This document shows, piece by piece, positions 169 to 30,710 of a DNA stretch of 38,040 bases (positions are counted from its first letter, which is position 1; each line of letters starts with the position of its first letter). A program made the position numbers and the translations under genes. Origin of the DNA: Desulfovibrionaceae bacterium. Lineage in GTDB: Bacteria > Desulfobacterota > Desulfovibrionia > Desulfovibrionales > Desulfovibrionaceae. The notes beneath the pieces are model-generated. The model ran no database searches. It was given only the letters and a program-made list of their open reading frames with translations, and was not told the DNA's origin. The stretch covers positions 1 to 38,040 of the forward strand of contig JAFQMU010000227.1 of assembly GCA_017421085.1 (NCBI GenBank), read 5' to 3'.

Positions 169-194
169 CGCTATTACCTTCTTATTATGCCGCC

Positions 195-686: not shown

Positions 687-697
687 GTAAGTCACCT

Positions 698-1051: not shown

Positions 1052-1070
1052 ATGAGTTTAACCCCGCTAT

Positions 1071-1607: not shown

Positions 1608-1618
1608 ACTTGCACCTA

Positions 1619-1999: not shown

Positions 2000-2027
2000 A
2001 GTTGTTATTCTCCTGAAAAATTATGAC

Positions 2028-2213: not shown

Positions 2214-2224
2214 AGCTTTTCTCC

Positions 2225-2764: not shown

Positions 2765-2788
2765 GGCTTATCTTCCTAAGTCTTAGTG

Positions 2789-3112: not shown

Positions 3113-3124
3113 GACCGTAAACCC

Positions 3125-3493
3125 CTATAATACTTCCGGGGCAAGAGAAATAATCTTCATAAAGTTTTTGGCGCGCAGTTCGCGGGCAACAGGTCCGAAA
3201 ATACGGGTGCCCACAGGCTCGCCCTGCTTGGAAAGCAGAACCGCAGCGTTGGTATCAAACTTAATATAAGATCCATCTGCCCGACGAATTTCTTTAGCTG
3301 TGCGCACAATCACCGCATCCATCACATCGCCCTTTTTCACCTTGGCGTGGGGCATGGCTTCCTTTACAGAAACCACAATGATATCGCCAACCGTGGCATA
3401 GCGGCGCTTGGAACCCCCAAGCACTTTAATGCAGGCAACTTTCTTGGCGCCGGAGTTATCCGCAACCTGAAGAGCAGTTTCTACCTGAATCAT
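3125..3493 (-). CDS. rplN: 50S ribosomal protein L14
   Basis: L14 forms an intersubunit bridge. The 122-residue product starts [18 protein letters not shown] and carries the L14 signature [16 protein letters not shown] followed by FDTNAAVLL and [13 protein letters not shown]. The length of 122 is exactly the usual bacterial size. It lies between rpsQ and rplX. Confidence 0.97.
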
Positions 3494-3523
3494 AACTGAC
3501 CTCTCTATAATGTCGAGCTGTTA

Positions 3524-3787
3524 CTACAGGCTCTTTTCCACAATGGATTCCAGATGCCAGCGCTTGGTGGCGGACATAGGCCGGAACTCGACAATTCTCA
3601 CCACGTCCCCCACACTGCACTCATTATTGGGATCATGAGCGGTAAAACGCTTGCGGCGGCGCACATACTTTTTCAGCAGGGGGTGCATGACCTGGGTTTC
3701 AACATTCACAATAATGGTCTTGTCATTCTTGTCGGAAACCACAACGCCGACAAGTTTTCTACCTTTGGTATTTAGGATAGCGGCCAT
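3524..3787 (-). CDS. rpsQ: 30S ribosomal protein S17
   Basis: S17 is a primary 16S rRNA-binding OB-fold protein. The 87-residue product contains GRKLVGVVVSDKNDKTI, HPLLKKYVRRRKRFTAHD and CSVGDVVRIVEFRPMSATKRW, all standard S17 motifs. It begins two nucleotides after the rpmC stop, in keeping with tight translational linkage. Confidence 0.96.
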   Translation of the reverse strand: MAAILNTKGRKLVGVVVSDKNDKTIIVNVETQVMHPLLKKYVRRRKRFTAHDPNNECSVGDVVRIVEFRPMSATKRWHLESIVEKSL

Positions 3788-3789
3788 AG

Positions 3790-3975
3790 TTACGCTCCCT
3801 TCTTCATTAAAGTAAGTATACGCGCAATGGTACGCTTCTTTGCCGGAATCTGAGCTGTATTTTCCAACTGACCGGTAGCATGGCTGAAGCGCAGATTCAT
3901 CAGTTCCTGACGGGCAGCCGCAAGCTTCTCTGCCAGCTCTTCCTGCGAAAGCTTTTTAAGTTCTGCAAGTTTCAT
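3790..3975 (-). CDS. rpmC: 50S ribosomal protein L29
   Basis: L29 sits at the peptide exit and helps form the docking site for trigger factor and SRP. The 61-residue product is a two-helix protein with the L29 pattern MKLAELKKLSQEELAEKL then ELMNLRFSHATGQLENT and a C-terminal IARILTL. It sits between rplP and rpsQ with two-base gaps on both sides. Confidence 0.95.
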   Translation of the reverse strand: MKLAELKKLSQEELAEKLAAARQELMNLRFSHATGQLENTAQIPAKKRTIARILTLMKKGA

Positions 3976-3977
3976 AA

Positions 3978-4391
3978 CTAGATGATCTCCTTAGTCACGA
4001 TAACTGTTTTCACAGGAAGCTTGTGCGCGGCGCGGATGAGAGCTTCCTTGGCAACATCGAGACTCACGCCGTCTATTTCATAAAGCACGCGACCCGGTTT
4101 AATCGGAGCCACGAAGCCTACAGGGGCGCCCTTACCGGAACCCTGACGGGTTTCAAGCGGTTTGGCGGTGATGGGCCAGTCAGGGAAAACGCGAATCCAG
4201 ATTTTACCCTGACGCTTGATGTGGCGCATTACCGCAATACGGGCCGCTTCGATTTGCTGCGAAGTAAGTTTGCCATGCTCCAATGCCTTAAGACCGATAG
4301 TGCCGAAGGAAATCACGCTGCCGTTGATGGCCATGCCTTTATTGCGGCCCTTCATGCGCTTACGGAATTTTTGTCTTCTTGGACTCAACAT
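3978..4391 (-). CDS. rplP: 50S ribosomal protein L16
   Basis: L16 organises the A-site tRNA region of the 50S subunit. The 137-residue product starts [19 protein letters not shown] and contains the conserved RIWIRVFPD-like stretch ([16 protein letters not shown]), [19 protein letters not shown] and the C-terminal [12 protein letters not shown]. Its ATG overlaps the rpsC stop by one base (TAATG), indicating translational coupling. Confidence 0.97.
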
Positions 4392-5032
4392 TACTGCTGT
4401 ACCTCATTGTCCAGAATTTCGCCTTTGAAAATCCAGACCTTAACGCCGATAATACCGTAAGTGGTGGTGGCAACGGCGTAACCATAATCAATGTCGGCCC
4501 GCAGAGTATGCAGCGGCACGCGGCCGTCGCGGTACCATTCGGAGCGGGCAATTTCAGCACCAGCCAGACGCCCGGAGCAGGCGATTTTAATCCCTTCCGC
4601 ACCGAACTTGCGGCTCATCAGCACCGTGCGCTTCATGGCGCGGCGGAAAGCCACCCGGCGCTCAAGCTGCATGGCCACGTTCTCGGCCACCAGCTGGGCT
4701 TCAAGCTCAGGACGACGAATTTCATTAACCTCAATGGAAAACTCACGCCCAAACTTCTGCTTGAGATCGGAACGGAGTTTTTCAATTTCCACACCCTTGC
4801 GACCGATAATGATGCCGGGACGGGCGGTGGAGAGAATCAGCCTCACTTTTGCGCCATGGCGTTCTATTTCGATTCTGGCAAGACCGGCATGATAAAGAAG
4901 TTTCTTGATGAAGGTCCGGATCTTATGATCTTCGAAAACATAAGCCGGATAATCCTTCTTGCTGTACCAGCGTGACTGCCAGTTTTTGTTATACCCCAGG
5001 CGAAAACCAAAAGGATGTACTTTCTGACCCAT
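4391..5032 (-). CDS. rpsC: 30S ribosomal protein S3
   Basis: S3 forms part of the mRNA entry tunnel. The 213-residue product opens [16 protein letters not shown]. It has an N-terminal KH domain with the GRKG loop ([17 protein letters not shown]) and the C-terminal S3 signature ([40 protein letters not shown]). Length fits the family. It overlaps rplP by one base. Confidence 0.97.
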
Positions 5033-5034
5033 AA

Positions 5035-5361
5035 TTAACCTTCCAATATCACAGTAATGTGGCTGGTTCGCTTAAGAATCCGGTTGGCACGACCCATGGA
5101 GCGCGGCTTAATCCGTTTCCAGATGGGACCGTCATTAACCACCACCTGCTTCACCTGCAAAGCGTCCACATCAGCGCCAATCTGCTGCGCGTTCGCAACA
5201 GCCGAATACATCACTTTATAAATAATTTCAGCTGCCTTCTTGGGGGTGAAACGCAGAATGTTCAGCGCATCTTCCACCGGCAGGCCATTCACATTGCGGG
5301 CCACAAGGCGCGCCTTGCGAGGCGATATTCTAGTAAACTTCAAAGTAGCTCTGGATTCCAT
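5035..5361 (-). CDS. rplV: 50S ribosomal protein L22
   Basis: L22 lines the peptide exit tunnel and its loop is a known site of macrolide-resistance mutations. The 108-residue product contains [18 protein letters not shown], then [19 protein letters not shown] and the loop/tail [22 protein letters not shown] at 5370 opens the frame three codons earlier but lies within the AAAGGTG Shine-Dalgarno, so the ATG at 5361 (6-nt spacing) is chosen. The same arrangement is seen at rpsE. Confidence 0.96.
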
Positions 5362-5372
5362 TCTAGTCACCT

Positions 5373-5657
5373 TTATTTCTTGACAGCTTTAGATTTCTTG
5401 TCGCCAGCATGTCCATGGAAGGTGCGGGTAAGCGAGAATTCGCCCAGTTTGTGACCAACCATGTTTTCGGTGACGAATACTGGAACAAACTTTCTGCCGT
5501 TATGCACCGCGAAGGTAAGGCCGACCATCTCGGGCAGAATGGTGGATCTGCGCGACCAGGTCTTGATTACCCTACGGTCATTGTTGGCAACGGCCTGCTC
5601 TACTTTTGCAAACAGATGGCCATCCACAAAGGGGCCTTTTTTCAGCGACCTAGGCAT
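5373..5657 (-). CDS. rpsS: 30S ribosomal protein S19
   Basis: S19 lies in the head of the 30S subunit and contacts the A site. The 94-residue product begins [19 protein letters not shown] and includes [25 protein letters not shown] split over the S19 signature, with [14 protein letters not shown] near the end. Size and order (rplB before, rplV after) match the S10 operon. Confidence 0.97.
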
Positions 5658-5673
5658 ATCTTACTCCTAACTT

Positions 5674-6498
5674 CTATCGACGGCGCTTAACAATAAGCTT
5701 GGACGATGCTTTTTTACGATTTCTGGTCTTATAACCCTTAGTAGGCATACCCCAAGGCGATACCGGATGACGACCGCCGGAGCTGCGCCCTTCACCACCG
5801 CCGAGCGGGTGGTCGATGGGGTTCATGGCAACACCGCGCACCTGAGGCCTGCGCCCAAGCCAGCGGTTACGCCCAGCCTTACCAAGGCTGATGTTTTCAT
5901 GGTCAAGGTTGCCAACCTGTCCAATGGTAGCAACACAGGCAGTGAGCACCTTGCGGATTTCGCCGGAGGGCATACGCAGAAGCGCATACTTGCCTTCTTT
6001 TGCGGTAAGCTGGGCATAGGCCCCGGCGGCACGGCAGAACTGCCCGCCGCGGCCGGGATGCAGCTCAATGTTATGCACAACGGTACCTACAGGGATATTG
6101 TTAATCTGCATTGCGTTGCCCGGTTTGATATCAGCATTGGGACCGGCAAGCACCTGATCACCCTGCTTCAACCCGTTGGGTGCAATAATATAACGTTTTT
6201 CACCGTCTGCATAGTGCAAAAGAGCAATACGGGCAGTGCGGTTGGGGTCATATTCAATATGCGCCACCACAGCCGGAATTCCGGCCTTGTCGCGCTTAAA
6301 GTCAATAATGCGGTAAAGACGCTTATGCCCGGCGCCTCTGCGACGGGAGGTCACGCGCCCCACATTGTTTCTACCGCTGCGTTCGGGTTTGCCGTGCACC
6401 AGAGAACGCTCATAACCGCTGCGGGTAATCTCTTCATAGGTAGAAACAGTCTGGAAGCGACGGCCAGCGGAAGTCGGGTTTAACTTACGTACGGGCAT
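5674..6498 (-). CDS. rplB: 50S ribosomal protein L2
   Basis: L2 is a core 23S rRNA-binding protein needed for peptidyl transferase activity. The 274-residue product has [11 protein letters not shown] at the N-terminus, [35 protein letters not shown], and the C-terminal signature [17 protein letters not shown] with the histidine of the conserved GVAMNPxDHPHGG region followed by Leu-Gly here rather than His-Gly. Length is normal for bacterial L2. Confidence 0.97.
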
Positions 6499-6501
6499 TG
6501 C

Positions 6502-6792
6502 TTATACCCCCTCAAAGAAATCAATTTTATCGCCTTCGGCCAAAGTAACGTAGGCTTTCTTATAACCGCTGACTTTACCGATGACTCTGCCATGACGCTG
6601 CCTGGGTTCAACCTTGCGGTTAACCACGTTGACGTCAAGCACTTTAACGTTAAAGGCTTTTTCTACAGCCTTGCCAATCTCAATCTTGTTGGCCTGCTTA
6701 TTTACATAAAAAGCTATTTTGTTTTCGCCATCGCGAAGCAAGGTCGCTTTTTCAGAAATAATCGGCTTAATCAAAATTTGCGTATAATCCAT
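6502..6792 (-). CDS. rplW: 50S ribosomal protein L23
   Basis: L23 is the exit-tunnel protein that docks trigger factor and SRP. The 96-residue product shows the family pattern [14 protein letters not shown] near the start, then [22 protein letters not shown], and [23 protein letters not shown] at the end. It ends three bases before rplB. Confidence 0.96.
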
Positions 6793-6803
6793 GATGCTAT
6801 CCC

Positions 6804-7439
6804 TTAGGCTTCACACTTTTGACTGAAGCGGGCTTCCAGCGGAGCAACGCTTTCTTCCAGCAGCACCAGTTGAGGATGACGCAGAATATCGAAAACAGTA
6901 AGCTGACTTGCAGTCATCACAGTGATGCCGGGTACGTTGCGGGCGGAAAGCTTCAGATTGGTATTTTCAGCCGGAGCCACCACCAGGGCCTTGGCAAGAC
7001 CAAGATTGCCGGCAACCTTAACAAATTCCCTTGTTTTAATCTCAGGGAGATCAATAGCCTTTACAACCATCAGGTTATTTTCGGCAAGACGCGAAGACAA
7101 AGCCATTTTCAAGGCCAGACGACGCACCTTTTTATTTACCTTGAAGGAATAATCACGGGGCTTGGGGGCAAAAAGCACCGCACCGCCGCGCCACAGAGGC
7201 GAACGTGTCGAACCGGCACGGGCGCGCCCGGTACCCTTCTGGGAATAAGGTTTCTTACCGCCGCCTGAAACCTGGCCGCGCTCTTTGGCGGCATGGGTAC
7301 CTACGCGGTAAGCTGCGCGCTGAGCCCGCACTACCAGATTGAGGATTTCGGGGCGCACAGCCACTTCAAAAATATCGGCCTGGAGATTAATCTCGCCCGC
7401 TTCCTGCTTATTCTGATCATATATCTTTACGAGAGCCAT
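6804..7439 (-). CDS. rplD: 50S ribosomal protein L4
   Basis: L4 lines the exit tunnel and, in E. coli, represses its own operon by binding the S10 leader. The 211-residue product has the extended-loop signature [20 protein letters not shown] followed by [15 protein letters not shown], and the C-terminal [17 protein letters not shown]. The long leader upstream of rpsJ in this window makes an L4-type feedback plausible, but sequence similarity to the E. coli leader was not seen. Confidence 0.97.
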
Positions 7440-7451
7440 TTTCCAATCTCC

Positions 7452-8078
7452 CTACTGCTTCTTAACCATTACCAGACCGCCCTTGGGGCCGGGAATGGAG
7501 CCTTTAATCAGAATGACATTCTCTTCCGGACGAACTTCCACGATCTGAAGATCGACTATGGACACGCGCGCATCGCCCATGTGACCCGCCATTCTCTTAT
7601 TCTTGAATACGCGACCCGGGAAGGTATGACAACCGGTAGAACCAGCCTGACGATGCACCTTTTCGGCGCCGTGGCTGTCGGGAGCGCCCCGGAAGTTCCA
7701 TCGCTTCATGGGACCGGCATAACCCTTACCAATGCTGCGGCCGATTACAGTAATGAAGTCGCCGCGCTGGAAAATATCCACAGTAATGTCCTGGCCCACC
7801 TCATATTCACTGGGTCCCTGCAGACGAATTTCGCGCAGGGTACGGCAAAGCCTGTCGGCCTTGGACAGATGCCCCTTCAGAGCCTTGTTCAGATGCTTTT
7901 CCTTGCCTTCGTCATAACCGATCTGCAGGGCATCATAACCATCTTTTTCCCGATTCTTAACCTGAACAACAGGACAGGGACCGGCCTCTACCACAGTCAC
8001 GGGAAGAACAGCGCCGTCAATATCAAAAATTCGGGTCATGCCCAGCTTGCGGCCGATAATTGCCAATTTTTCTGCCAT
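7452..8078 (-). CDS. rplC: 50S ribosomal protein L3
   Basis: L3 is an early-assembly protein whose long arm reaches the peptidyl transferase centre. The 208-residue product has [11 protein letters not shown] at the start, the L3 signature [20 protein letters not shown] and [21 protein letters not shown], and a C-terminal [14 protein letters not shown]. Order and length are standard. Confidence 0.97.
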
Positions 8079-8098
8079 GATAATTCACCGCCTTAAAG

Positions 8099-8416
8099 CT
8101 AGAGCTTAATTTCAACATCAACGCCGGCGGGCAGCGAAAGCCTGCCGAGCGCGTCAACGGTTTGCTGGGTAGGCTCAAGAATATCCATCAAACGCTTATG
8201 AATGCGCATTTCGAACTGCTCACGTGATTTCTTATCCACATGCACGCTGCGGTTTACAGTATACTTGTGGATATTGGTGGGCAGAGGGATGGGGCCGGCA
8301 ACGCCTGCACCCGTGTTGCGGGCCGTATCCACAATTTCGGCTACAGCCTTGTCTAAAATGCGGTAATCGTAAGCCTTGAGCTTAATCCTGATACGATCAC
8401 TGCTTACTGTTGTCAT
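8099..8416 (-). CDS. rpsJ: 30S ribosomal protein S10
   Basis: S10 is a 30S head protein that also acts as NusE in transcription antitermination. The 105-residue product starts [20 protein letters not shown] and has the conserved [31 protein letters not shown] block. An in-frame ATG at 8467 would add 17 residues (beginning [10 protein letters not shown]) that S10 proteins lack. The internal ATG at 8416 has a clear GGAGAGAAG Shine-Dalgarno sequence just upstream and gives the standard length, so it is chosen. First gene of the operon, preceded by a long leader. Confidence 0.97.
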
Positions 8417-8957
8417 CTCTTCTCTCCGTATCTCAAAAGACGCTTTTGGCCTTGCCTGCCGAACCATTTCGGCGGCCAGTATTCCTCACCAGGGCGAAAC
8501 CTGAATGGCACTACCGGTCCAGGTTTCTTTAACCGGGGAACTTCGCCTCAAACAGCTCACTGCGAGTGGGCTACAGAAGAATGATCGTTTTGGGCAGCCA
8601 GGCTGACCAAAACAGGACCTCTCCCTTCACAGCCTCTTTCATCACAGCACTTTCAACAAAGCTCCATGCGAAGGTATATCCTACGTTTGACAGCCTGACT
8701 TTAAAAGGTCAGGTGGTCCGCAGGGGTCACCAAGGGGCGGAATACTCCGCCAACTTCACTACCTTACAGCCCGGCACATCAAGCCTTGGCGGGCTGGAAC
8801 GGCGCACAAACAAATGCGGCAACGCCTGCAATTTCAAAACAACGCTACCGTTTGAGCGGCGCGCTGTCTGCGCTTGGAGGGTTGCACCCTCCCTCCCCAG
8901 CCGTTACGGGGAGTTCCCAACCTTGAGTTATGGCTGATAGGCCATCCTACAAGACCA
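8417..8957 (-). ncRNA. Long structured 5' leader of the S10 operon
   Basis: About 540 nt separate the predicted transcription start from rpsJ, with no convincing gene inside. Several perfect stem-loops are visible. They include 8454-8476 (six pairs with a 4-base loop, plus outer pairs across a bulge), 8587-8613 (GTTTTGG pairing with CCAAAAC plus an inner CAGC/GCTG), 8736-8751 (GGCGGA with TCCGCC) and the 7-bp GGAGGGT/ACCCTCC hairpin at about 8877-8893. In E. coli the S10 leader is the target of L4 control, so an autoregulatory role is a reasonable inference. I see no match to the E. coli leader. A 23-codon frame (8571-8642, two Trp codons) lies inside but lacks a good ribosome site. Confidence 0.5.
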
Positions 8958-8964
8958 GAGCGAC

Positions 8965-8993
8965 TTAATACCCCTGTCAGCCAATCAAGTCAA
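8965..8993 (-). promoter_or_regulatory. sigma70-type promoter of the S10 operon
   Basis: On the minus strand TTGACT (8993-8988) is followed after exactly 17 bases by TATTAA (8970-8965). This is a near-consensus -35/-10 pair with optimal spacing. Transcription should start near 8957-8958 and run into the rpsJ leader. Strong promoters are expected for ribosomal protein operons. This is the best promoter match I found in the window. Confidence 0.75.
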
Positions 8994-9375
8994 GTACTTT
9001 TTGCAAATTTCCATTAAACTTTATTTTGCCGCACTGCTTCCAGCAAATCCATTACAATGAAAATTTTAAATCAAATTTGTCAGTAATTCCAGCTCATCCC
9101 CAAATTTGAAGGACAGGTTGCTGCAAAAAGCTGTAGACATTCGCCCGGAAATATGTTTGTTATGCCCTGCCGGGCAACCGGCAAGGGCCGATCTGAAACT
9201 GTTTCCCTAAGCGGTGCATAAGGCAGTTTCAGACCAGGCCCTTTTTATTGGGCCATAAAAAATTCCCATCATTAATATCATTTGGTTGTTCCATAGGGCT
9301 GAACCGCCGATTTCCTTTTACTTCACTCTGGTCAAATTGCAAAATCTGCGCTAAATTATATTGTGGAGTATATTT
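8994..9375. other. Divergent intergenic region with three consecutive stem-loops
   Basis: This gap between the S10 promoter (leftward) and the DsbD-like gene (rightward) has no convincing ORF. Three hairpins lie in a row. The first is 9165-9187 (CCCTGCCGG pairing with CCGGCA-A-GGG around a GCAA tetraloop). The second is 9192-9233 (10-bp TCTGAAACTG/CAGTTTCAGA stem with a 22-base loop). The third is 9237-9254 (GGCCC/GGGCC with a T-rich loop). Their direction is unclear. They could form a small RNA, a 5' leader element of the DsbD-like gene, or remnants of a terminator. The rest of the gap is A/T-rich and unassigned. Confidence 0.4.
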
Positions 9376-19984: not shown

Positions 19985-21403
19985 TTAATTTTCCAGCAGA
20001 TAATCCTGGCTGACAGGGGAGTTTTTCATAATTATGGGGGCGTCTATCTCCGCCTTTTCAAACTCGCTGTGCGCTATCCCCAGGCTCTCCAGCAGACGCC
20101 CTCCCAGGGCCAGCAGACGGTAAGCCGAGCCCACCTCATTCATACGCGCGGTCACCAGCTGCATGGAGTTGGAAAAAATTTCGTTTTCCGCGTTCAACAC
20201 GTCAAGCAGGCTGCGCTGCCCGATGTTAAACTGCTCCCAATACATTGAGGTGGTTGACTTTGCATAGTCAACGGCCTGTTGGTAGAAACGAATCTGTTCC
20301 CGGGTCGCCTCCAGACGCGCCCAGGTATCGCGGGTATCCTTGGCCAGCCCTTCGTAAATATCCTGATAATCTGCCCTGGCCTGACGCGAACGTGAGAAGG
20401 AAGCCTTGATGTTATAATAGTCATACAGCCCGTTGAACAAATTCCAGTCGGCGCGCAAAAGGGCGGTGTAGCTTCTGGTCCACGATACGCTTGAATCCAC
20501 ATGATCAAGATAGCGGGCGCCCAGCTCGGCATAAATTATCGGGTGATAACCGGACTTAGCCAGAGTAATTTCCGCATCAGCCGCGCTGATATCGGACATG
20601 TAGGCATCAAGTTTGGGGTTGTTGGTCTGGGCGTACATCAGGGCTTCATTGTAGCTGGCGGGGGCAGTCGGCGGGAACTCGGGCGGCAGAAGCTCGTGAG
20701 CTTCCATTCCCGTAACCCGTCTGTAGTTGGCCATGGCCACCTGCAAATCGCCCTGCGCCCCGGCCAGAGTGGAACGGGCCTGGGCCAGACGCCCTTGAGT
20801 CTGGGTAACATCGGCGACAGTGTCTATGCCGGAGGCCAGACGCTCCTGCTGGGAACCCAGAATCCTTTCATGCACCCGCACATTGTTTTCAGCCAGATCA
20901 ACCAGCTGACGCTGACGCAGCACCTCAATGTGAGCCAGCACCGCGTCAAGCCCGATGCTCTCCGAATTGTCAAACAGGCGGCTGTAGGCTGAATTCAGCT
21001 TGGCCTCGTTAATATCCACCCGGCTGGCCGTAGCCAGACCGTCCCAGATAGTCTGGGTGAGAATAAGCTCCCCGTCAAAACGGGCGTATACTGTTTCATC
21101 CTGATCCAGGCGGCGGGTGTCTTCATTGCTGTATTGACGCAGACCATAGCCTGCCCGCGCATCAAGCCGGGGAAACCAGCCGGAACGGGCCTTGCCCACT
21201 TCGTGCAGGGCGGCTTCGCTGTACTCCTGAAAACTTTTGATTACGGGATGATTGTGCAGACTGGACAGGGCGGAATCGCGCAGGCTAGCAGAAACCGGCA
21301 TTCTTTCCTGAGCCCCCGCATCAGTTTCAAACAGTAAAAAACCTGCAATCACAAACCCTAAACAACTGAAAAGCCTGCCGGCATAGTAAACTGATTTAAG
21401 CAC
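19985..21403 (-). CDS. TolC-family outer membrane channel (LapE/AggA-like)
   Basis: The 472-residue product has a signal peptide (about 1-31, ending DAGAQ) and the duplicated long coiled helices of TolC proteins. HNHPVIKSFQEYSEAALHEVGKARSGWFPRLDARAGYG opens the first repeat. The second contains ITLAKSGYHPIIYAELGARY and VDYAKSTTSMYWEQFNIGQRSLLDVLNAENE. It forms the outer membrane duct of a type I secretion system. The start is GTG at 21403 with a GAGG 7 bases upstream. It is divergent from the exporter, with a shared 310-nt control region. Confidence 0.92.
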   Translation of the reverse strand: MLKSVYYAGRLFSCLGFVIAGFLLFETDAGAQERMPVSASLRDSALSSLHNHPVIKSFQEYSEAALHEVGKARSGWFPRLDARAGYGLRQYSNEDTRRLDQDETVYARFDGELILTQTIWDGLATASRVDINEAKLNSAYSRLFDNSESIGLDAVLAHIEVLRQRQLVDLAENNVRVHERILGSQQERLASGIDTVADVTQTQGRLAQARSTLAGAQGDLQVAMANYRRVTGMEAHELLPPEFPPTAPASYNEALMYAQTNNPKLDAYMSDISAADAEITLAKSGYHPIIYAELGARYLDHVDSSVSWTRSYTALLRADWNLFNGLYDYYNIKASFSRSRQARADYQDIYEGLAKDTRDTWARLEATREQIRFYQQAVDYAKSTTSMYWEQFNIGQRSLLDVLNAENEIFSNSMQLVTARMNEVGSAYRLLALGGRLLESLGIAHSEFEKAEIDAPIIMKNSPVSQDYLLEN

Positions 21404-21713: not shown

Positions 21714-24155
21714 ATGACTGCTAAGCTAAAAGACAAACTCAAGCCAAACCTGGCTCATGAAGGAAATTCCGCTTCTTTGCCTGATGACGGCAGCTGTGAA
21801 AAAGAGATATTTACCAACCCGCCCGATGATAAACCGGTTGAAGCTGAGAATCCTGCCGCGCATCAGGCAGCCTCCGGCTCTGCTTCCCCAAAAGAACAGA
21901 AAGCATCTGAAGCGGGGAACGGTTTTCCAGCTCAGACGCCCCCCTGCGGCGATAAAAATGATGAGGGTTTATCCCGCCCCCTTTCAACTCTCGAGGTGAG
22001 CGCTGGTGATGTTGACTTCGAGCCTCCGCTCATTCAGAGTTTGGCCATGCTGTTCAAACTGCTGGGCAAACCTGTATCGTCTAGCTTTCTGCTTTCCGGC
22101 CTGCCGGTAACCGAGGCCGCCCTGCGCCCCTCCTCACTGATCCGCGCTGCCCGCCTTGGGGGCATGCACGCCAAAACCGTTTACCGGGCCACCCTCAGAG
22201 AAATTTCTCCGCTAACCCTTCCCTGCATTTTACTGCTCAAGAACAACAAGTCCTGCGTACTGGCCGGTTATGACGAAAACGGAGCTCAGGTACTATTCCC
22301 GGAAACCGGGCAGATTCCTACGCCTGTTTCGCTGGAAAGCCTGGAAAATGAATATACAGGCTACGCCATTTTCGGCAGACTGGAAGGCAAACTGGACAGA
22401 CGGGCCAGCGAGATTAAACTGGTTAAGCAGAAACGCTGGTTCTGGGATACGCTGCTGCACTTTTTCCCCATCTACAAGCATGTGCTGCTGGCCAGCGTGG
22501 TGGTAAATCTGCTTACCTGCGCCTCGCCTTTGTTCTTCATGAATGTATACGACCGGGTGGTTCCCAACGGGCGCAATGCCTTTGAAACCCTGTGGGCTCT
22601 TGCGGTCGGCATCGTCATTGTTTATCTGTTTGACTTTATCCTGCGTAACCTGCGCTCCTACTTTGTGGATGTGGCCGGTAAAAACGCCGACATGGTCCTG
22701 GCCAGCCGCCTGATGCGTCACCTGATGAACATCAAGCTGGACAATAAGCCCGACTCAACCGGCTCTCTGGCCAATAATCTGCGCGAATTCGACTCGCTGC
22801 GCGAGTTTTTCGGCTCAACCACCCTGCTGGCTCTGGTTGACCTGCCTTTTCTCTTCTTTTTCCTCGGCATAATCGCCTTTATCGGCGGGCCGCTGGTCAT
22901 TGTGCCTCTGGCGGCAATTCCCCTGGTCGTTGGGGCGGGCTTCCTTTCTCAATACTGGTTTCAGCGGGCTGTGGAAGCAGGATATAAGGAAACCACCCAG
23001 AAAAACGCCCTGCTGATTGAAATCATTAATGGGCTTGAAACCGTAAAAAGCTCTCTGGCGGAAGGAAGGATGCAGCATTCCTGGGAAGAGGTGGTAAGCA
23101 TGAGCGCCAACTCCAGCGCCAGAATCAAGATGTTTTCCAATCTCACGCTCACCCTGTCGGTGCTGGCTACCCAGATGGTCAGCGTGCTGGTGATTATCTG
23201 GGGGGTATACCGCATTGACGAGCAGCTGATGACCATGGGCGCCCTGATTGCCGTAAATATGCTGGCCGGACGGGCCATGGCCCCGCTTTCTCAGCTCGCA
23301 TCCATGCTCACCCGTTTGCAGCAGTCGCGCATGGCGCTCAAGTCGCTCGACCTGCTCATGCTTTTGCCGGCAGAACGCCCGGACGACAAACCGTATGTGG
23401 ATTTTGGCAAACTGCGGCCCGCCCTTACCCTTGACAACCTTTATTTTAAATACCCAGACACTGAGCGCTGGGCCCTGGAAGGGGTGAATCTGCAAATCAA
23501 CCCCGGCGAAAAAGTAGGGATTATCGGCAGGATGGGATCAGGCAAAAGCACCTTGGGGCGTTTGCTCATGGGCCTTTACGAGCCGTCTGAGGGGGCGGTG
23601 AAGCTTGACGGGGTGGATATCCGCCAGCTTGACATCGCTGATTTACGTGCGCGGGTTGGCTACCTGTCGCAGGACAACTACCTGTTTTACGGCAGCGTGC
23701 GCGACAATATTGCCCTGGGCATGCCCTACGCCGATGACCGGATGATTTTGCGGGCTGCATCCATTGCCGGGGTGAGCGATTTTATCCGCGCCCACCCCGC
23801 CGGGTTCGGAATGCCGGTGGGTGAACGGGGCATGGCCCTTTCAGGCGGGCAGAGGCAGGCGGTGGCCATTGCCCGCGCCCTGCTGCATGACCCGGATATT
23901 CTGGTGCTTGATGAACCCAGCAGCAATATGGACAACGCCTCCGAGCATGTTTTCAAACAGCGCCTGGCCGCCTGTATTGAAGACAAAACAGTGATTATTG
24001 TAACTCATCGCCTGAGCATGCTTGATCTGGTAGACCGGCTGGTAATTGTGGATAACGGCAGAATTGTAGCCGACGGCCCGAAAGATGCCGTGCTCCGGGC
24101 CCTGAAAGACGAACGGATAAAAGGCGGAGCAGGAAACAGCCCCGCTCCGGGCTGA
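21714..24155 (+). CDS. Type I secretion ABC exporter with degenerate C39 domain (LapB-like)
   Basis: The 813-residue product has four parts. A Pro/Glu/Ser-rich N-terminal extension covers about 1-100. A C39-peptidase-like domain (about 104-225) has no cysteine where the catalytic one should be (EPPLIQSLAMLFKLLGKP). A six-helix membrane domain spans about 245-545. The ATPase domain has Walker A GRMGSGKS (605-612), signature LSGGQ (709-713), Walker B ILVLDEP (729-735) and the switch His at 765. C39-like domains without cysteine recognise but do not cut substrates, as in RTX adhesin exporters of the LapB type. GAGG precedes the ATG by 7 bases. Confidence 0.93.
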   Translation: MTAKLKDKLKPNLAHEGNSASLPDDGSCEKEIFTNPPDDKPVEAENPAAHQAASGSASPKEQKASEAGNGFPAQTPPCGDKNDEGLSRPLSTLEVSAGDVDFEPPLIQSLAMLFKLLGKPVSSSFLLSGLPVTEAALRPSSLIRAARLGGMHAKTVYRATLREISPLTLPCILLLKNNKSCVLAGYDENGAQVLFPETGQIPTPVSLESLENEYTGYAIFGRLEGKLDRRASEIKLVKQKRWFWDTLLHFFPIYKHVLLASVVVNLLTCASPLFFMNVYDRVVPNGRNAFETLWALAVGIVIVYLFDFILRNLRSYFVDVAGKNADMVLASRLMRHLMNIKLDNKPDSTGSLANNLREFDSLREFFGSTTLLALVDLPFLFFFLGIIAFIGGPLVIVPLAAIPLVVGAGFLSQYWFQRAVEAGYKETTQKNALLIEIINGLETVKSSLAEGRMQHSWEEVVSMSANSSARIKMFSNLTLTLSVLATQMVSVLVIIWGVYRIDEQLMTMGALIAVNMLAGRAMAPLSQLASMLTRLQQSRMALKSLDLLMLLPAERPDDKPYVDFGKLRPALTLDNLYFKYPDTERWALEGVNLQINPGEKVGIIGRMGSGKSTLGRLLMGLYEPSEGAVKLDGVDIRQLDIADLRARVGYLSQDNYLFYGSVRDNIALGMPYADDRMILRAASIAGVSDFIRAHPAGFGMPVGERGMALSGGQRQAVAIARALLHDPDILVLDEPSSNMDNASEHVFKQRLAACIEDKTVIIVTHRLSMLDLVDRLVIVDNGRIVADGPKDAVLRALKDERIKGGAGNSPAPG

Positions 24156-24262: not shown

Positions 24263-25723
24263 ATGAAAAAAGCGTCTTTCTTGCAAAAACTGGCGGCGCT
24301 GTTTGTCCGTCTGCCTCAGGGCGAGGTTCCTGCATCTGAAGGCATGAAACGCCGACCATCGCTGCTCGACCGGGCCTCGTTCAGGTCTGATTTGCGCGAA
24401 ATGAGCCACGACGCCCGTGAAAATCTTGCCTTCATGAACAGCGTGGACGCCGCTCTGCATAACACAGGTCATCCTATGGCCTATGTTGTTTCGCTAGGGG
24501 TAGCGCTGTTTTTTGCAGCGTTTATCATCTGGGCTTCTCTTGCAAATCTGGATGAGGTAACCAGAGGTCAGGGCTCGGTAGTGCCTTCGCAACGGGTACA
24601 GGTGATCCAGAACCTGGAAGGCGGCATTCTGGAAAATATCCCGGTTCAGGAAGGCTGGATTGTGGAAAAAGGAGAAATTCTGGCAGTTATCGACAACACC
24701 GGCCTGCTCGGCACCGTAGGCGACATGCGGGTCAAGGTGCTTGAGCACCGGGCCGCCATTGCCCGCCTGGAGGCTGAGGCCACCGGGCGGGAGCCAGTGT
24801 TTCCCCCTGATTTGCTGGAAGCTGCGCCGGTAATAGTTGAACAGGCCCAAGCTCTTTATCTTTCCCGCAAAAACCAGTTTGACCAGGAAGAGTCGGCTCT
24901 GCTTTCAGTGCTTGAGCAGCGCATGCACGATGTGCAGGAACTGGAAAGCAAAAGAAAAACCATTTCCGAGTCTCTGAATATTGCCGTGCAGCGGCGCGAT
25001 AACGCCAAGCCTCTGATGGAACGAAAAATCTTCTCACAACAGGATTATCTCCTGCTTGAGCAGCAGGTTACCGACCTGACCGGCGAGCTGAACAACATTG
25101 CCGTGGCCATTCCCCGCGCCCAGAGCGCCCGGCGCGAGGCCAACGACCGCCTGGAACACCGGCAGGCGGAAATTCGCTCGCAGGCCCTGACAGAGCTCAC
25201 CAAGACCAGGGCAGAACTTGCAACCATGGAGGCGACCCTGGAAGGCCGGGAAGATGTGCTGCGCCGCACCGATGTGCGTTCTCCCGTGCGGGGCATTGTA
25301 AAAAAAATCCATATCACCACCAACGGCGGAGTCATCAAACCGGCTGAACCGATAATGGAGATTGTTCCCCTCGATGATCAGCTGCTGGTAGAGGCGAAAA
25401 TCCGCCCCTCGGACATTGCCTTTATCAAGGTGGGGCAGCAGGCCATGGTCAAGATATCTACCTTCGACTTCAGCCGTTTCGGCGGACTTGAGGCCAGAGT
25501 GGTGCATGTGGGAGCCGATACTCTGGAAGATAAAAACGGAGAAAGCTACTATCAGGTAAGGCTGCAAACCGATAAAAACGCGATTGTTTATCAGGGGGTG
25601 GAGCACCCCATCAGTCCGGGGATGATTGCCACTGTGGATATACTGACCAATAAGAAGACGGTTCTCGACTATTTGCTGAAACCGATATTCAAGGCAAAAG
25701 AGGATGCCTTTACCGAACGCTGA
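24263..25723 (+). CDS. HlyD-family membrane fusion protein of type I secretion (LapC-like)
   Basis: The 486-residue product bridges the inner-membrane exporter and the TolC-like channel. It has a cytoplasmic N-terminus (about 1-72), one transmembrane helix (about 73-92, AYVVSLGVALFFAAFIIWAS), the lipoyl half-motif RVQVIQNLEGGILENIPVQEG, a long coiled-coil hairpin (about 190-335), and the returning beta-barrel part (VRSPVRGIVKKIHITTNGGVI, then VKISTFDFSRFGGLEARVVHV), all typical of HlyD/LapC. Its 3' end overlaps the lapG-like gene by 20 bases, implying coupled translation. Confidence 0.93.
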   Translation: MKKASFLQKLAALFVRLPQGEVPASEGMKRRPSLLDRASFRSDLREMSHDARENLAFMNSVDAALHNTGHPMAYVVSLGVALFFAAFIIWASLANLDEVTRGQGSVVPSQRVQVIQNLEGGILENIPVQEGWIVEKGEILAVIDNTGLLGTVGDMRVKVLEHRAAIARLEAEATGREPVFPPDLLEAAPVIVEQAQALYLSRKNQFDQEESALLSVLEQRMHDVQELESKRKTISESLNIAVQRRDNAKPLMERKIFSQQDYLLLEQQVTDLTGELNNIAVAIPRAQSARREANDRLEHRQAEIRSQALTELTKTRAELATMEATLEGREDVLRRTDVRSPVRGIVKKIHITTNGGVIKPAEPIMEIVPLDDQLLVEAKIRPSDIAFIKVGQQAMVKISTFDFSRFGGLEARVVHVGADTLEDKNGESYYQVRLQTDKNAIVYQGVEHPISPGMIATVDILTNKKTVLDYLLKPIFKAKEDAFTER

Positions 25724-26396
25724 TTGCCTGAAAAATCTGCTGGCCCTGCTGGCAGCGCTTTTCATCTTTTCTCTGCCGGGCTCTCCAGAAAAGGCATACG
25801 CTCAGGAGAATAAGCGCAAGGAGTTTCATTTATTTGGAACCAAAGAATTTCGTGCGTCCTATAAAAGTCTGCCCAAATGGGTGGAAATTGTAAATTTTGA
25901 AAAAGGCAGCGCCACCTTTCAACACCTGAAAGGCAAGGAGGCAGGCCGCTGGAGCCGCCTGCGCGAACAGACTTTAAATGCCGGACGCCTGGACAAAATT
26001 AAACGGGTAAACAACTTTTTTAACCGGTGGCCCTACCGCACCGACATGGAAGCCTGGGGCAAAAGCGATTACTGGGCAAAGCCCAAGGAATTTATCGCCA
26101 AATCGGGCGACTGCGAAGATTATGCCATAATCAAATATTTTGCCCTGAAGGATCTGGGTGTGCCCATTGAAGATATGCGAATAGTGCTGCTCAACGACAC
26201 CATTCGCGGCTTGGGGCACGCCGTGCTGGCGGTGGACGTGGACGGAACGGCATATATTTTGGATAATGTATCCAGTCTGGTACTCACCGATGACCGGCTG
26301 CCACACTATAAACCGGAATATTCAGTGAATGAATATTTCCGCTGGGTGCATCTGCCGGCTGAGTCGGTAAACCCGGCAAAGTCCGTAATAAACTAG
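25704..26396 (+). CDS. lapG: LapG-type periplasmic cysteine protease (transglutaminase-like, C93)
   Basis: LapG cuts the N-terminal retention module of giant secreted adhesins and so releases them from the cell surface. The 230-residue product has a signal peptide (about 1-34, ending KAYAQ) and the C93 core RVNNFFNRWPYRTDMEAWGKSDYW split around the family landmarks. The catalytic triad candidates are Cys137 (SGDCEDYAI), His172 (GLGHAVLAV) and Asp187 (YILDNV). Asp136 and Glu138 flank the cysteine, as do the calcium ligands known in LapG proteins. It overlaps the HlyD-like gene by 20 bases. The protease appears intact. Confidence 0.92.
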   Translation: MPLPNADCLKNLLALLAALFIFSLPGSPEKAYAQENKRKEFHLFGTKEFRASYKSLPKWVEIVNFEKGSATFQHLKGKEAGRWSRLREQTLNAGRLDKIKRVNNFFNRWPYRTDMEAWGKSDYWAKPKEFIAKSGDCEDYAIIKYFALKDLGVPIEDMRIVLLNDTIRGLGHAVLAVDVDGTAYILDNVSSLVLTDDRLPHYKPEYSVNEYFRWVHLPAESVNPAKSVIN

Positions 26397-26773
26397 AAGC
26401 CGCCATAAAATGCGGCTTCCGCCGCCTGAAATGCAGGCGGCCCGGCGGCGAAACCGCCATGAACAAGCCGAAATCCGCTTTTTTCGGAAAAGTAATTTTG
26501 TCAACTCGAAAGTTGCTTATTGAGACAGGTTCTCTACCAAGGCATTTGTTCAGGCGACAGGAGCAGCCGCCCGCTCTGGACCAGGCGGAAAACTGCGCTT
26601 TTTCAGCACAGCGGGAAAACAGAGCCTGGATTGAAAGCAGCAGCGTTTCAATCAAAATTGCTCCGAAACAGTTCAATGCGGCCACAGGCCGCGTTGAGAA
26701 CGGCGGCCCCGGGCAGGGCGCCGCCCGATATCCAAAGGCGACGTAGCAATATTTATAATAATGGAGAGCTGTT
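26397..26773 (+). promoter_or_regulatory. 377-nt hairpin-rich region between lapG and the HD-GYP-like gene
   Basis: No convincing ORF is present; frames of 85-95 codons here lack family features and good ribosome sites. At least eight stem-loops can be drawn: 26396-26419 (GAAGCCGC/GCGGCTTC), 26421-26441 (GCCGCCTG/CAGGCGGC), 26444-26458, 26468-26487, 26502-26515 (CGAA loop), 26567-26588, 26629-26653 (GATTGAAA/TTTCAATC) and 26672-26698 (about 11 bp around GCGGCC/GGCCGC). A further pair, GGCGGC/GCCGCC, lies at 26702-26725. The first ones may end or stabilise the lapG transcript. The rest would form the leader of the next gene, whose GGAG site is at about 26763. Confidence 0.5.
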
Positions 26774-28843
26774 ATGACTAATTTGACCGCAGGAGCCCCC
26801 GCAGGCAAAAAGTCAAAGGTTTTGTGGTTTGGGCTTGCCCTGGCGCTGGTTACCGTTGTTGTCGCGGCCAGCCTGTTGTTTCTGAATGTACGCAGCCGCG
26901 AGGCCGATCTTGAGGCAGCCCTGGAACAGCAGCAGACAGCCTTTATCAACGGACGGGAGCAGAGCATCACCCTCTGGCTCGACGATATGGAAATGCAGGG
27001 GGAACGTATTGTAAACGGCGATATTTTCCGCCTGTTCGCCTCAGATGTGAATATGCTTGAAGGCGACATTTCCATTCTGTTCGCCGGAGCGGAAGATTCA
27101 GACAATGATGACCTGCGCAGCCTGGTTGCCCAGCTGCCGATGATGCGGAATATGCTCAGAGAATTTGCCTCATATTCCGGCTTTCTCTCCGGCCGGATAG
27201 TCAACAGCCGCGGTGAAACATACATCGCCAGCGAAACCGGGGTGCCCCGGCTGACCAGGGAACAGATGAAACGGGTAAGCGCAGCCCTCGACAGCGGTAA
27301 AACCGTGTTTTCCAATGTTTACCTTACCCCGCACGGTCTGGTTATGGATATGTTCATGCCTATTTTCCCGCCTCAGGCGGATGACGGCTCCGATCAGGCG
27401 GTAAGCGTGCTGGTTCTCTCCCGCATCGTTACTCCCCGCCTCTCAGAATTTGTAAAATCTTCACCGACAGATTTACGCGATATGCGCAGCTATCTGGTGC
27501 AGGCAGGGGAAAACAACCGCCTTGAGCTCATGCGCCCCGGCATGGGAGTTGACAGCCTGGGCGCCTTGCCTCCCGATATTCTGCAAAACAGCGAAAAACA
27601 GATGAAATTTGCGAGGCGCACAGGCGTAAATGGCGAGGAAGTATACTCCATGGGGGTGAAAATACCTCACATGAACTGGTGGCTGATTGAAGAAGTGAAC
27701 TATGAAGAAGTGCGCACCGAACTGAACGCGTACATCAGCACAGCCATAGGTCTTACCGTTATGGCCTCGCTCGTGCTCATTCTAACGATTATTGTGCTCT
27801 GGTGGCGGCTGGTGGGCAATGAACACCGCGAAACGGCAATGCGGGTACAGAATCTGCTTTCTCAAATAGAGGAACAGAAACAACTGCTCGATGCCATCAA
27901 CTCCACCATTTCCGACCTTATTTCGCTTACAGATGACAAAGGGGTTATCCAATATGCCAACCTGGCCTTTGCCGAGGCCGTGGGGCGCGATGTGAAGCAG
28001 GTTGTCGGGCTGGATATCCCCGCCCTGTTCGGCTTTGACACCGGCAAACGCCTGATTGCCAGCGACCATCAGGTGCTGATGAGCGGAGAAGCTCTGACGG
28101 TGAGAGAGACCATCTGGCTGCAGTCGCAAAAACATCATTTTGAAATTGTCAAAGCGCCCCTTTCTGGCGTGGCAGGGCGTCAGGCCCGGGGCATCGTATC
28201 TGTCTATCGCGACATCAGCGAACTGGTGGAAGCCCAGGAGCGCAGTCAGAAGGTTGTACGTCAGACCATCGATGCCCTGGTGCGCACTATCGAAGAAGGC
28301 GACCCCTACCTGGCCGGGCACTCCCGGTTTATGAGCGTCCTGAGCAGCCAGATCGCCAGGGCCATGAACCTGACCGAAATCAGCGCAGCCACAGTGGAGG
28401 AGGCGGCGAACCTTTCCCAGATAGGCAAGATGTTCGTGCCTCAGGAAATTCTGAATAAGCCCGGGGCGCTCACTGAAGAAGAAAAAATGATTATGGAAAG
28501 CCACGCCGAGCACTCGCGGCGGGTGCTCCAGAATATAGAATTTGACCTGCCCATAGTCGATGCCATTTATGAAATGAATGAACGCCTGGACGGCACCGGT
28601 TACCCCCGCAGGCTCAAAGGTGAAGAAATCGGCGTTAATGCGCGCATTCTGGCTGTGACCAACGCGTTTACCGCCATGGTGCGTCCCCGCTCCTACCGGC
28701 AGGCCCTGCCGGTAAACGAGGTGGTGGAAATTTTACGCAGACAAAGCGCCGCATATGATCAGGAAGTGGTTGACGCGCTTGAACGCCTGCTGTCAACGCC
28801 GGCAGGCGAACGTCTGATGAACACCTTGTCTAAACACGGGTAA
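26774..28843 (+). CDS. Membrane sensor: periplasmic domain, PAS, degenerate HD-GYP
   Basis: The 689-residue product has a transmembrane helix (about 16-38), a periplasmic domain of about 280 residues, and a second helix (about 322-346). A cytoplasmic PAS domain (about 370-480, AINSTISDLISLTDDKGVIQYAN) and an HD-GYP-like domain (about 500-675) follow. The HD-GYP scaffold is clear (EGDPYLAGHS, IGKMFVPQEILNKPG, RLDGTGYPRRLKGEEI, NARILAV). However, the metal ligands are replaced: HD by Ser548-Gln549, HH by Met601-Asn602, and the late aspartates by Asn630 and Thr633. It is thus probably not a cyclic-di-GMP hydrolase but may bind the nucleotide. Its place after lapG suggests a LapD-like role. Confidence 0.85.
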   Translation: MTNLTAGAPAGKKSKVLWFGLALALVTVVVAASLLFLNVRSREADLEAALEQQQTAFINGREQSITLWLDDMEMQGERIVNGDIFRLFASDVNMLEGDISILFAGAEDSDNDDLRSLVAQLPMMRNMLREFASYSGFLSGRIVNSRGETYIASETGVPRLTREQMKRVSAALDSGKTVFSNVYLTPHGLVMDMFMPIFPPQADDGSDQAVSVLVLSRIVTPRLSEFVKSSPTDLRDMRSYLVQAGENNRLELMRPGMGVDSLGALPPDILQNSEKQMKFARRTGVNGEEVYSMGVKIPHMNWWLIEEVNYEEVRTELNAYISTAIGLTVMASLVLILTIIVLWWRLVGNEHRETAMRVQNLLSQIEEQKQLLDAINSTISDLISLTDDKGVIQYANLAFAEAVGRDVKQVVGLDIPALFGFDTGKRLIASDHQVLMSGEALTVRETIWLQSQKHHFEIVKAPLSGVAGRQARGIVSVYRDISELVEAQERSQKVVRQTIDALVRTIEEGDPYLAGHSRFMSVLSSQIARAMNLTEISAATVEEAANLSQIGKMFVPQEILNKPGALTEEEKMIMESHAEHSRRVLQNIEFDLPIVDAIYEMNERLDGTGYPRRLKGEEIGVNARILAVTNAFTAMVRPRSYRQALPVNEVVEILRRQSAAYDQEVVDALERLLSTPAGERLMNTLSKHG

Positions 28844-28884: not shown

Positions 28885-29145
28885 GCGGGCACAGAACATC
28901 CGTATGAAAGTTATACTGATGTCACCTCTGGAAATGGTCTGCCTCTGCCGTTTCAGAAGGCTGCCTCACTTGGGCGCGCTGCTCCGCAAGTCGCATACGT
29001 TATGTCAGCCGATTCAAGGCAATTGAAGATGCGCTTCCCGCACGCAAGCCGACGTACAGCGGCGCCTTGAAAGAAGCGAAGGATAATTTTTTAAAACTAA
29101 TCTGCATGAGTGCAAAGTCAGATTATCATTTTTGAGGGTGCAACA
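28885..29145 (+). other. Intergenic stretch before the CDP-glucose dehydratase
   Basis: No gene recognised. A 40-codon frame (28904-29026, MKVILMSPLEMVCLCR...) has no ribosome site and no family features and is not called. The A/T-rich end of this stretch (about 29085-29100) may carry the promoter of the sugar cluster, but no clear -35/-10 pair was found. Confidence 0.3.
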
Positions 29146-30249
29146 ATGTTCAAAGGTGCGTACAGTGACAAGAAAGTCTTGATAACCGGGCATACCGGGT
29201 TCAAAGGTTCCTGGCTTTCAGCCTGGCTGCTCTCACTGGGAGCGGAAGTAGGCGGATTTTCTCTGGGAAACCCTACCGAACCTTCAAATTTCGATGTGCT
29301 GGGGCTCCGTCCCCGCATCAGGCATTATGAAGGCGACATCCGCGACCGCGATGCAATTACCGATGTAGTAAAAGACTTCGCCCCGGACATAGTGTTCCAT
29401 CTGGCCGCTCAGTCTCTGGTGCGCAAATCATATTCGCACCCGGCGCTGACCATGGAAACCAACATCATGGGCACGGTCAACCTGCTTGAAGCAGTGCAGG
29501 GTTCACCCAGCATCCGTTCGCTCGTGTGCATCACCTCCGACAAATGTTATCACAACAAGGAGTGGATGTGGGGCTACAGGGAAAACGATGAGCTGGGCGG
29601 CGATGACCCTTACTCCGCCTCCAAGGCCGGGGCGGAACTGGTGGCTCATTCCTATTTCCGCTCTGGTCTGCCGGTGGATATTTATGCGGCGACAGCCCGG
29701 GCAGGCAACGTAATCGGCGGCGGCGACTGGGCGGAAGACCGCATTGTTCCCGACTGTGTGAGGGCCTGGACCGCCGGAAAGCCGGTGAATATCCGCAACC
29801 CCTGGTCAACCCGTCCCTGGCAGCATGTGCTTGAGCCGTTGTCCGGCTATCTCTGGCTGGGTTCATGTCTTTATACCGGGCATACCCGCGATGGCCTGCC
29901 GGTAAACAAAGAGGCGTTTAACTTCGGCCCGGCAGCGGATGTAAATAAAACTGTGGGTGAAGTGGTGGAAAGCCTCGGCGCCCACTGGCCCGGCTTCAGC
30001 AACGCCATAGACCGCAACGTCCCGGCAGGAAAAATGGAAAACACCCTGCTTAAACTCTGCTGCGACAAGGCGCTGGCCCACCTGGGCTGGAAGGCGGTGC
30101 TCGATTTCCCGCAGACTGTTGAATATACTGCTTCATGGTACAAGGCATGGCGCGACGGCGACAAGGACATGTATGCCTTCACCATGCGCCAGATTGAAGA
30201 ATATGTCGCGCAGGCGCGGCAAAAGGGGCTTGAATGGGCTCAGCAATAG
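29146..30249 (+). CDS. rfbG: CDP-glucose 4,6-dehydratase
   Basis: This short-chain dehydrogenase turns CDP-glucose into CDP-4-keto-6-deoxyglucose for O-antigen deoxysugars. The 367-residue product has the NAD-binding motif TGHTGFKGSWLSAWL, HLAAQSLVRKSYSHP, the catalytic region ITSDKCYHNKEWMWGYREND and the YSASK motif (DPYSASKAGAELVAHSY), all diagnostic of RfbG. An upstream ATG at 29110 would add 12 residues; ATG 29146 follows GAGG at 29134-29137 and matches the usual start. The partner cytidylyltransferase (rfbF) and 3-dehydrase (rfbH) are not in the window. Confidence 0.93.
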   Translation: MFKGAYSDKKVLITGHTGFKGSWLSAWLLSLGAEVGGFSLGNPTEPSNFDVLGLRPRIRHYEGDIRDRDAITDVVKDFAPDIVFHLAAQSLVRKSYSHPALTMETNIMGTVNLLEAVQGSPSIRSLVCITSDKCYHNKEWMWGYRENDELGGDDPYSASKAGAELVAHSYFRSGLPVDIYAATARAGNVIGGGDWAEDRIVPDCVRAWTAGKPVNIRNPWSTRPWQHVLEPLSGYLWLGSCLYTGHTRDGLPVNKEAFNFGPAADVNKTVGEVVESLGAHWPGFSNAIDRNVPAGKMENTLLKLCCDKALAHLGWKAVLDFPQTVEYTASWYKAWRDGDKDMYAFTMRQIEEYVAQARQKGLEWAQQ

Positions 30250-30710
30250 ATGGAGTTGCGCTTACCCCGCTGAGAATCATTCCCACCCAGGGCGGGCCGG
30301 TGCTGCATATGCTCAAGGCGGAATCGCCCAATTTTGCCGGGTTTGGAGAAATTTATTTCTCCGAAGTTACGCCGGGATCAGTGAAGGGCTGGAAGCGGCA
30401 TCTGCAGATGCGCCAGAATTTTGCTGTGCCCAGGGGCTGCGTCAGATTCATCATTTATGACGATCGCCCCGGATCCCCTACCAGAGGAATGGTACAGGAA
30501 TGCCTTCTGGGCCGCCCTGACCACTACCGCCTGCTCAGCATGCCGCCTCTCCTCTGGTACTCGTTTGCCTGCGTGGGGGAAGAACCGGGCCTGATTGCCA
30601 ACCTGACCGACCTGATGCACAACTCGGAAGAAAGCGAGATGGTTCCCATTGACAGCGCTGAGGCATCGGCCTTTCCCTATTCGTGGGCAAAGAGCAGGAA
30701 TGGGGAATAA
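30234..30710 (+). CDS. dTDP-4-dehydrorhamnose 3,5-epimerase-like (RfbC/cupin) protein
   Basis: The 158-residue product resembles the RfbC cupin fold: VALTPLRIIPTQGGPVLHMLK at the start, FGEIYFSEVTPGSVKGWKRHL with the histidine of the epimerase core, QNFAVPRGCVRFIIYDDRPGS, and LLSMPPLLWYSFACVGEEPGLIANL. It likely epimerises a nucleotide-linked 4-keto-6-deoxyhexose made by the adjacent dehydratase, as in CDP-sugar pathways. It is shorter than full RfbC (about 180). It overlaps rfbG by 16 bases, with AAGGGG before the ATG. Confidence 0.8.
   Translation: MGSAIDGVALTPLRIIPTQGGPVLHMLKAESPNFAGFGEIYFSEVTPGSVKGWKRHLQMRQNFAVPRGCVRFIIYDDRPGSPTRGMVQECLLGRPDHYRLLSMPPLLWYSFACVGEEPGLIANLTDLMHNSEESEMVPIDSAEASAFPYSWAKSRNGE

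Follow-up and report, generated by a model that had tools for sequence, protein, structure and literature searches.

The stretch of DNA considered here (hereafter the window) comprises 38,040 nucleotides from a Desulfovibrionaceae bacterium (GenBank assembly GCA_017421085.1, contig JAFQMU010000227.1, positions 1 to 38,040 of the forward strand). It contains the genes dvhG (25704..26396) and dvhD (26774..28843), both on the forward strand, which encode a C93 (LapG-type) protease of 230 amino acids (aa) and a predicted membrane receptor of 689 aa for cyclic dimeric GMP (c-di-GMP). The two are orthologs of a pair in Desulfovibrio vulgaris Hildenborough that is known as DvhG-DvhD, DVU1019-DVU1020 or BfsG-BfsD. 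The locus very probably represents an adhesin-control module of the Dvh (Bfs) kind, the ortholog of DVU1019/DVU1020, in which c-di-GMP controls the restraint of an adhesin-cutting protease.

The Protease and the Receptor

DvhG matches the C93/LapG-type protease family (PF06035, E 5e-19). Its catalytic residues Cys137, His172 and Asp187 were located, together with the calcium-site pair Asp136/Glu138, which flanks the catalytic cysteine in a Gly-Asp-Cys-Glu-Asp stretch (26106..26120, forward strand). Across 62 DvhG relatives, Asp136, Cys137, Glu138 and His172 are invariant (62/62) and Asp187 is found in 60, which bears out the intact protease proposed in an initial annotation made from the sequence alone. 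A likely Sec signal peptide (25704..25802, forward strand) is indicated by a hydrophobic stretch at residues 6–27 in a hydropathy scan and by a putative AYA-QE cleavage junction after residue 33. D. vulgaris DvhG is instead anchored in the membrane and has a linker of roughly 180 residues; the window protein is without a long linker. In a sequence search of the PDB, DvhG matched the LapG structures 4fgo/4u65 only. Unlike Lap-type LapG, it scores far below the curated cut-off of the NCBIfam LapG model NF045674 (86.8 bits against 320); judged by that model, it is a C93 protease but not a Lap-type LapG.

The receptor DvhD has the domain order of the Dvh/Bfs system. All its parts lie on the forward strand: a first membrane helix (residues 13–41; 26810..26896), a periplasmic dCache domain recognized by its match to PDB entry 9rc2 (residues 50–309; 26921..27700), a second membrane helix (residues 317–349; 27722..27820), a PAS domain (residues 379–485; 27908..28228; PAS_4 E 1e-10) and a degenerate HD-GYP domain supported by a profile match and a residue map (residues 502–665; 28277..28768; HD_5 E 8e-42). 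The helices were placed by hydropathy, and the whole agrees with the architecture read earlier, i.e., a periplasmic domain between two membrane helices followed by PAS and HD-GYP domains. A domain search of the 689 residues returned neither GGDEF nor EAL. When the protein was searched against the PDB, three chains were matched, namely 9rc0 (PAS/HD-GYP, E 1e-115), 9rbz (HD-GYP, E 4e-78) and 9rc2 (periplasmic domain, E 6e-54). All carry the name "HD domain/sensory box protein" and are fragments of D. vulgaris DvhD (DVU1020), to which the PAS/HD-GYP part of the window protein is 58% identical.

Alignment to these structures and the residue map also confirmed the loss of metal ligands noted initially: the HD motif is replaced by S548-Q549, the HH motif by M601-N602, and the late Asp positions by N630 and T633. 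PmGH and other active HD-GYP phosphodiesterases share with the window DvhD the HD-GYP fold, the tyrosine of the GYP loop and the Arg/Tyr contacts to c-di-GMP, but they keep the HD, HH and late Asp ligands by which an active enzyme is recognized, and the window protein has none of these. The residues that contact c-di-GMP in D. vulgaris DvhD (PMC13090378) were mapped onto the window protein; positions such as K520, Y523, P567 and R569 are given in D. vulgaris numbering. Seven of the eight canonical contacts are kept, with Y523 corresponding to Y512 in the window, L577 to L566, K582 to K571, Y621 to Y610, M646 to M635, R650 to R639 and Y652 to Y641.

Gene Order and the Remaining Parts of the Module

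The genes 5′ of dvhG encode a type I secretion system. An ABC transporter resembling LapB, with a C39-like N-terminal domain (21714..24155, forward strand; TIGR03375 (LssB) E 4e-284, above cut-off; Peptidase_C39 E 1.5e-6), is followed by a periplasmic adaptor of the HlyD/LapC kind (24263..25723, forward strand; TIGR01843 E 2e-117, above cut-off), the end of which overlaps the start of dvhG (25704 versus 25723). Divergent from the other genes is that of the LapE-like, TolC-family outer-membrane channel (19985..21403, reverse strand; TIGR01844 E 2e-75, above cut-off; OEP E 9e-50). The order ABC-adaptor-DvhG-DvhD is the one found in relatives and published for D. vulgaris. While dvhG and dvhD almost touch in several of the relatives examined, a gap of 377 bases separates them in the window (26397..26773). 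A repeated element was considered for this gap and rejected, since its sequence occurs once in the genome; it contains several short inverted repeats rich in GC. Farther out, the left end of the window (195–8467, minus strand) is a ribosomal protein operon with S10, L3, L4, L2, S3, L6 and S5 among others. Directly 3′ of dvhD, a CDP-glucose 4,6-dehydratase (TIGR02622, above cut-off) is followed by a weakly epimerase-like gene (29110–30710).

The adhesin was sought in the rest of the genome. An RTX search returned only the C-terminal part of a secreted protein (823 aa, truncated where contig C134 ends), so that a profile built from the retention modules of relatives was needed. This profile gave a single match, at the N-terminus of an open reading frame on contig C69 that spans at least 3080 aa (1–9240, minus strand) and is itself cut by the contig end. 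The sequence 3′ of the retention domain (...YGDQLETAAGPAAGG...) has tandem TAAG-PAAG motifs. The genome thus holds the full module, with TolC, ABC transporter, adaptor, DvhG and DvhD in the window and the giant adhesin on another contig. It has a single C93 gene and seven GGDEF matches; the GGDEF/GGEEF motif is intact in four of the latter, which could make c-di-GMP, to judge by their motifs.

Distribution and Phylogeny

A survey of 297 genomes of the order (C93 matches with E up to 1e-6; adjacency taken as a same-strand DvhD-like gene at most 3.2 kb away) found a C93 protein in 157. Among the matches listed, a DvhD-like gene adjoins the protease gene in 113 of 145 genomes, and at least five of the remaining genomes proved to have one as well upon fetching. 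Given this frequency and the match of the PAS/HD-GYP part to 9rc0, the pairing of dvhG and dvhD is far from chance. A tree with 87 rows places the window DvhD in one group (96/98) together with its D. vulgaris counterpart and 34 further DvhG-adjacent receptors. For the window's own genus, the sample offered one other genome, which carries neither gene. Named genomes, scanned with the receptor, yielded a sole relative, in Halodesulfovibrio sp. SZUA-473.

Comparison with Known Systems and Proposed Mechanism

The D. vulgaris pair has been described in several studies. A paper of 2017 (PMC5646257) noted a LapG paired with an HD-domain protein that replaces LapD, together with the synteny and the domain swap. 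Reconstitution of the system, with control of DvhG that depends on c-di-GMP, was reported in 2024 and is summarized in PMC11784015. In April 2026, crystal structures of DvhD followed (PMC13090378; PDB 9RBZ, 9RC0 and 9RC2), with a periplasmic dCache domain, SQ in place of HD and Met-Asn in place of HH. According to the same study, the HD-GYP domain binds c-di-GMP with a dissociation constant (Kd) of about 99 nM without hydrolysis and also binds cGAMP (Kd about 500 nM), the stalk helices splay upon c-di-GMP binding, and DvhG cleaves at a di-alanine. The restraint of DvhG is an AlphaFold 3 model only, in which helix alpha1′ of the dCache domain lies against the back of DvhG, and the mechanism is called unknown there.

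The window shares with D. vulgaris the domain order, the lost ligands (SQ, MN, N), the canonical c-di-GMP pocket and the gene order, and its genome likewise encodes a giant type I adhesin that is predicted to be cleavable. It differs in the adhesin being encoded away from the operon, in the gap 5′ of dvhD and in several contact residues discussed below. The logic is also that of LapD-LapG in Pseudomonas fluorescens: a dead-phosphodiesterase membrane receptor for c-di-GMP, a periplasmic C93 protease and a giant type I adhesin with a retention module. The receptors themselves are built differently, LapD as LapD_MoxY_N-HAMP-GGDEF-EAL and the window DvhD as dCache-PAS-HD-GYP. The initial annotation had taken DvhD for a LapD analogue on a dead HD-GYP receptor and presented this as a distinct design. 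The analogy itself is reported for the orthologous D. vulgaris pair and agrees with the nearly complete set of c-di-GMP contacts; its further element, sequestration through the periplasmic domain, is known from D. vulgaris as a model only. The claim of novelty has to be given up. The design is already published, and the window adds an example from a different genus, in which DvhG has a likely signal peptide and the bridging site is probably weakened.

By analogy with D. vulgaris, DvhD would form a dimer in the inner membrane, and its HD-GYP domain would bind c-di-GMP without cutting it, cleavage being precluded because the metal ligands are gone. Binding would move the stalk helices, and the change would travel via the PAS domain and the membrane helices to the periplasmic dCache domain, which would then restrain the calcium-dependent protease DvhG. 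Once c-di-GMP falls, DvhG would be free to cut the giant type I adhesin in its N-terminal retention module, at a di-alanine (TAAG/PAAG); the cut adhesin would leave the cell, and the cell would detach. For the window copy, orthology, the kept contacts, the lost metal ligands, the intact catalytic triad and calcium site, and the presence of all module parts are established. From these we infer that the pair behaves like that of D. vulgaris and that the restraint acts via direct contact between the dCache domain and DvhG.

Points against This Reading and Alternative Explanations

Several observations weigh against a c-di-GMP-controlled adhesin switch at this locus. The functional claims for the window pair would be carried over from the biochemistry of D. 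vulgaris. The adhesin sits on another contig than dvhG and dvhD, its cleavage region is without a DP motif just before TAAG, and a C93 substrate other than the C69 adhesin is possible. Within the receptor, Gln657 takes the place of E668, the eighth canonical contact, by which D. vulgaris DvhD reads the second base, and the polar bridging contacts K520 and R569 are replaced by Gly509 and Glu558. Because of the latter two replacements, the window DvhD may have a lower affinity for the third c-di-GMP of each dimer, or may not bind it at all. The bridging-site proline P567 is kept (P556). This site was called conserved in the structural study, and its polar contacts were called weak (PMC13090378). 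In 85 relatives, neither K520 nor R569 was found once (0/85 each, R569 being usually Glu or Asp), while P567 occurs in 81; the conservation therefore looks limited to the proline, and the two polar contacts look particular to the crystallized protein.

These replacements bear on the very improbable alternative that DvhD is a LapD analogue whose main input is no longer c-di-GMP, its state being set by the PAS or dCache domain or by cGAMP. Both domains are sensor folds, E668 and the bridging contacts are changed in the window, D. vulgaris DvhD binds cGAMP, and DvhG-adjacent receptors of a related genus have lost most ligand contacts (see below). Set against this are the seven kept residues (Y512, L566, K571, Y610, M635, R639 and Y641) and the 58% identity to D. 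vulgaris DvhD over the PAS/HD-GYP part. That DvhD has decayed into a functionless, degenerate phosphodiesterase is barely credible: the substituted HD and HH ligands are what such decay would leave, but the 689-aa frame is intact, nearly all family members carry these substitutions (Ser-Gln at the HD site in 54 of 56 DvhG-adjacent relatives), the domain is well conserved (mean identity 56%) and D. vulgaris DvhD is reported to work.

The receptor could also be an independent sensor that stands beside the protease by chance, with a true LapD elsewhere controlling DvhG, a case set beforehand as one that would overturn the initial proposal. A LapD, with LapD_MoxY_N and a degenerate GGDEF-EAL part, was ruled out as the receptor of the window by the domain content of DvhD and the lack of PF16448 in the genome. 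Room for one elsewhere is left by the metagenome-assembled genome being about 91% complete and by two GGDEF-EAL proteins, both on contig C140, one of which has membrane helices and a long periplasmic part. No LapD_MoxY_N domain (PF16448) was found in this about 91% complete genome, so that the predicted absence of a LapD is strong but not final. The C140 membrane protein does not fit either: its GGDEF is degenerate but its EAL motifs are intact, it reaches 117 bits against a LapD cut-off of 1020 through its GGDEF-EAL part only, and several phosphodiesterase models outscore the LapD model on it. The other C140 protein is without a periplasmic domain. Since the neighbourhood of DvhG is, moreover, conserved across the order, an accidental neighbour with a hidden LapD is very improbable.

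Receptors of a Related Genus

In one genus of the same family (g3), ligand contacts are missing from the receptor beside DvhG. A first set of g3 genomes, chosen because a second or distant receptor copy had been listed for them, provided 20 complete DvhG-adjacent copies. In all 20, Y523 is replaced (by Asn in 19 and His in one), position 582 has Gln or Leu instead of Lys, the GYP motif is without its tyrosine Y621, and Ala and Gly take the places of H588 and N613. These contact-poor receptors form one clade (100/100). As their HD-GYP domains are strongly conserved (71% identity within the group), they are, on this evidence, not decaying, and they may be blind to c-di-GMP.

The g3 DvhG-adjacent copies with lost contacts are those of loci L062, L063, L074–L089, L092, L093 (3365–5455), L144–L146, L158–L165 and L167–L169. 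Over this wider set, Y523 is Asn, K582 is often Gln, H588 is mostly Ala and the GYP tyrosine is Gln, Leu, Ser, Asn, His or Thr, or is missing. An alignment gap falls at the GYP tyrosine in some g3 receptors (L164, L165, L167–L169, L171, L172, L174 and L175); in four of these, positions 523 and 582 are moreover occupied by Gly and Tyr.

A second g3 receptor keeps Y523, Y621, R650 and nearly always Y652 in the first sample, with Arg at 582. In the loci examined that had enough flank, it belongs to a TolC-ABC-adaptor-receptor operon without DvhG. Such contact-keeping DvhD-like receptors were seen at L057–L061, L094–L113, L118 (11981–14128) and L176–L180. In genome G260, both receptors adjoin, with DvhG-DvhD1 facing DvhD2-adaptor-ABC-TolC; at L118, the second receptor is convergent with DvhG-DvhD1. 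The contact-keeping receptors suggest a two-receptor version of the adhesin switch in some genomes. The main text of PMC13090378 mentions no paralogs of DvhD. In the searches of G056, G137, G240 and G265 (L144, L160–L163), only the contact-poor copy was found and no second receptor. DvhG may be controlled without c-di-GMP in these four, or a distant second receptor may have been missed. Because some genomes showed the contact-poor copy only, a split receptor is not the whole answer, and a simple two-receptor explanation for all contact-poor g3 receptors was dropped. We put forward, tentatively and with more doubt than confidence, that the Dvh design is evolvable beyond what the published papers describe. 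The bridging third c-di-GMP would not be general and would be weakened in the window DvhD, while the DvhG-side receptor of g3 would have lost c-di-GMP sensing, its task being shared with another DvhD-like receptor, encoded in a type I secretion operon, or passed to a different signal.

Significance

The published view that sulfate-reducing bacteria rebuilt the Lap adhesin switch around a dead HD-GYP receptor gains support from this locus. The value of the window is confirmatory, and with it a divergent member becomes available for judging which contacts are important. The comparative data further offer a testable refinement, i.e., that the polar bridging contacts are not conserved, and, in the contact-poor receptors of one genus, a lead on how the inside-out adhesin switch may be rewired.

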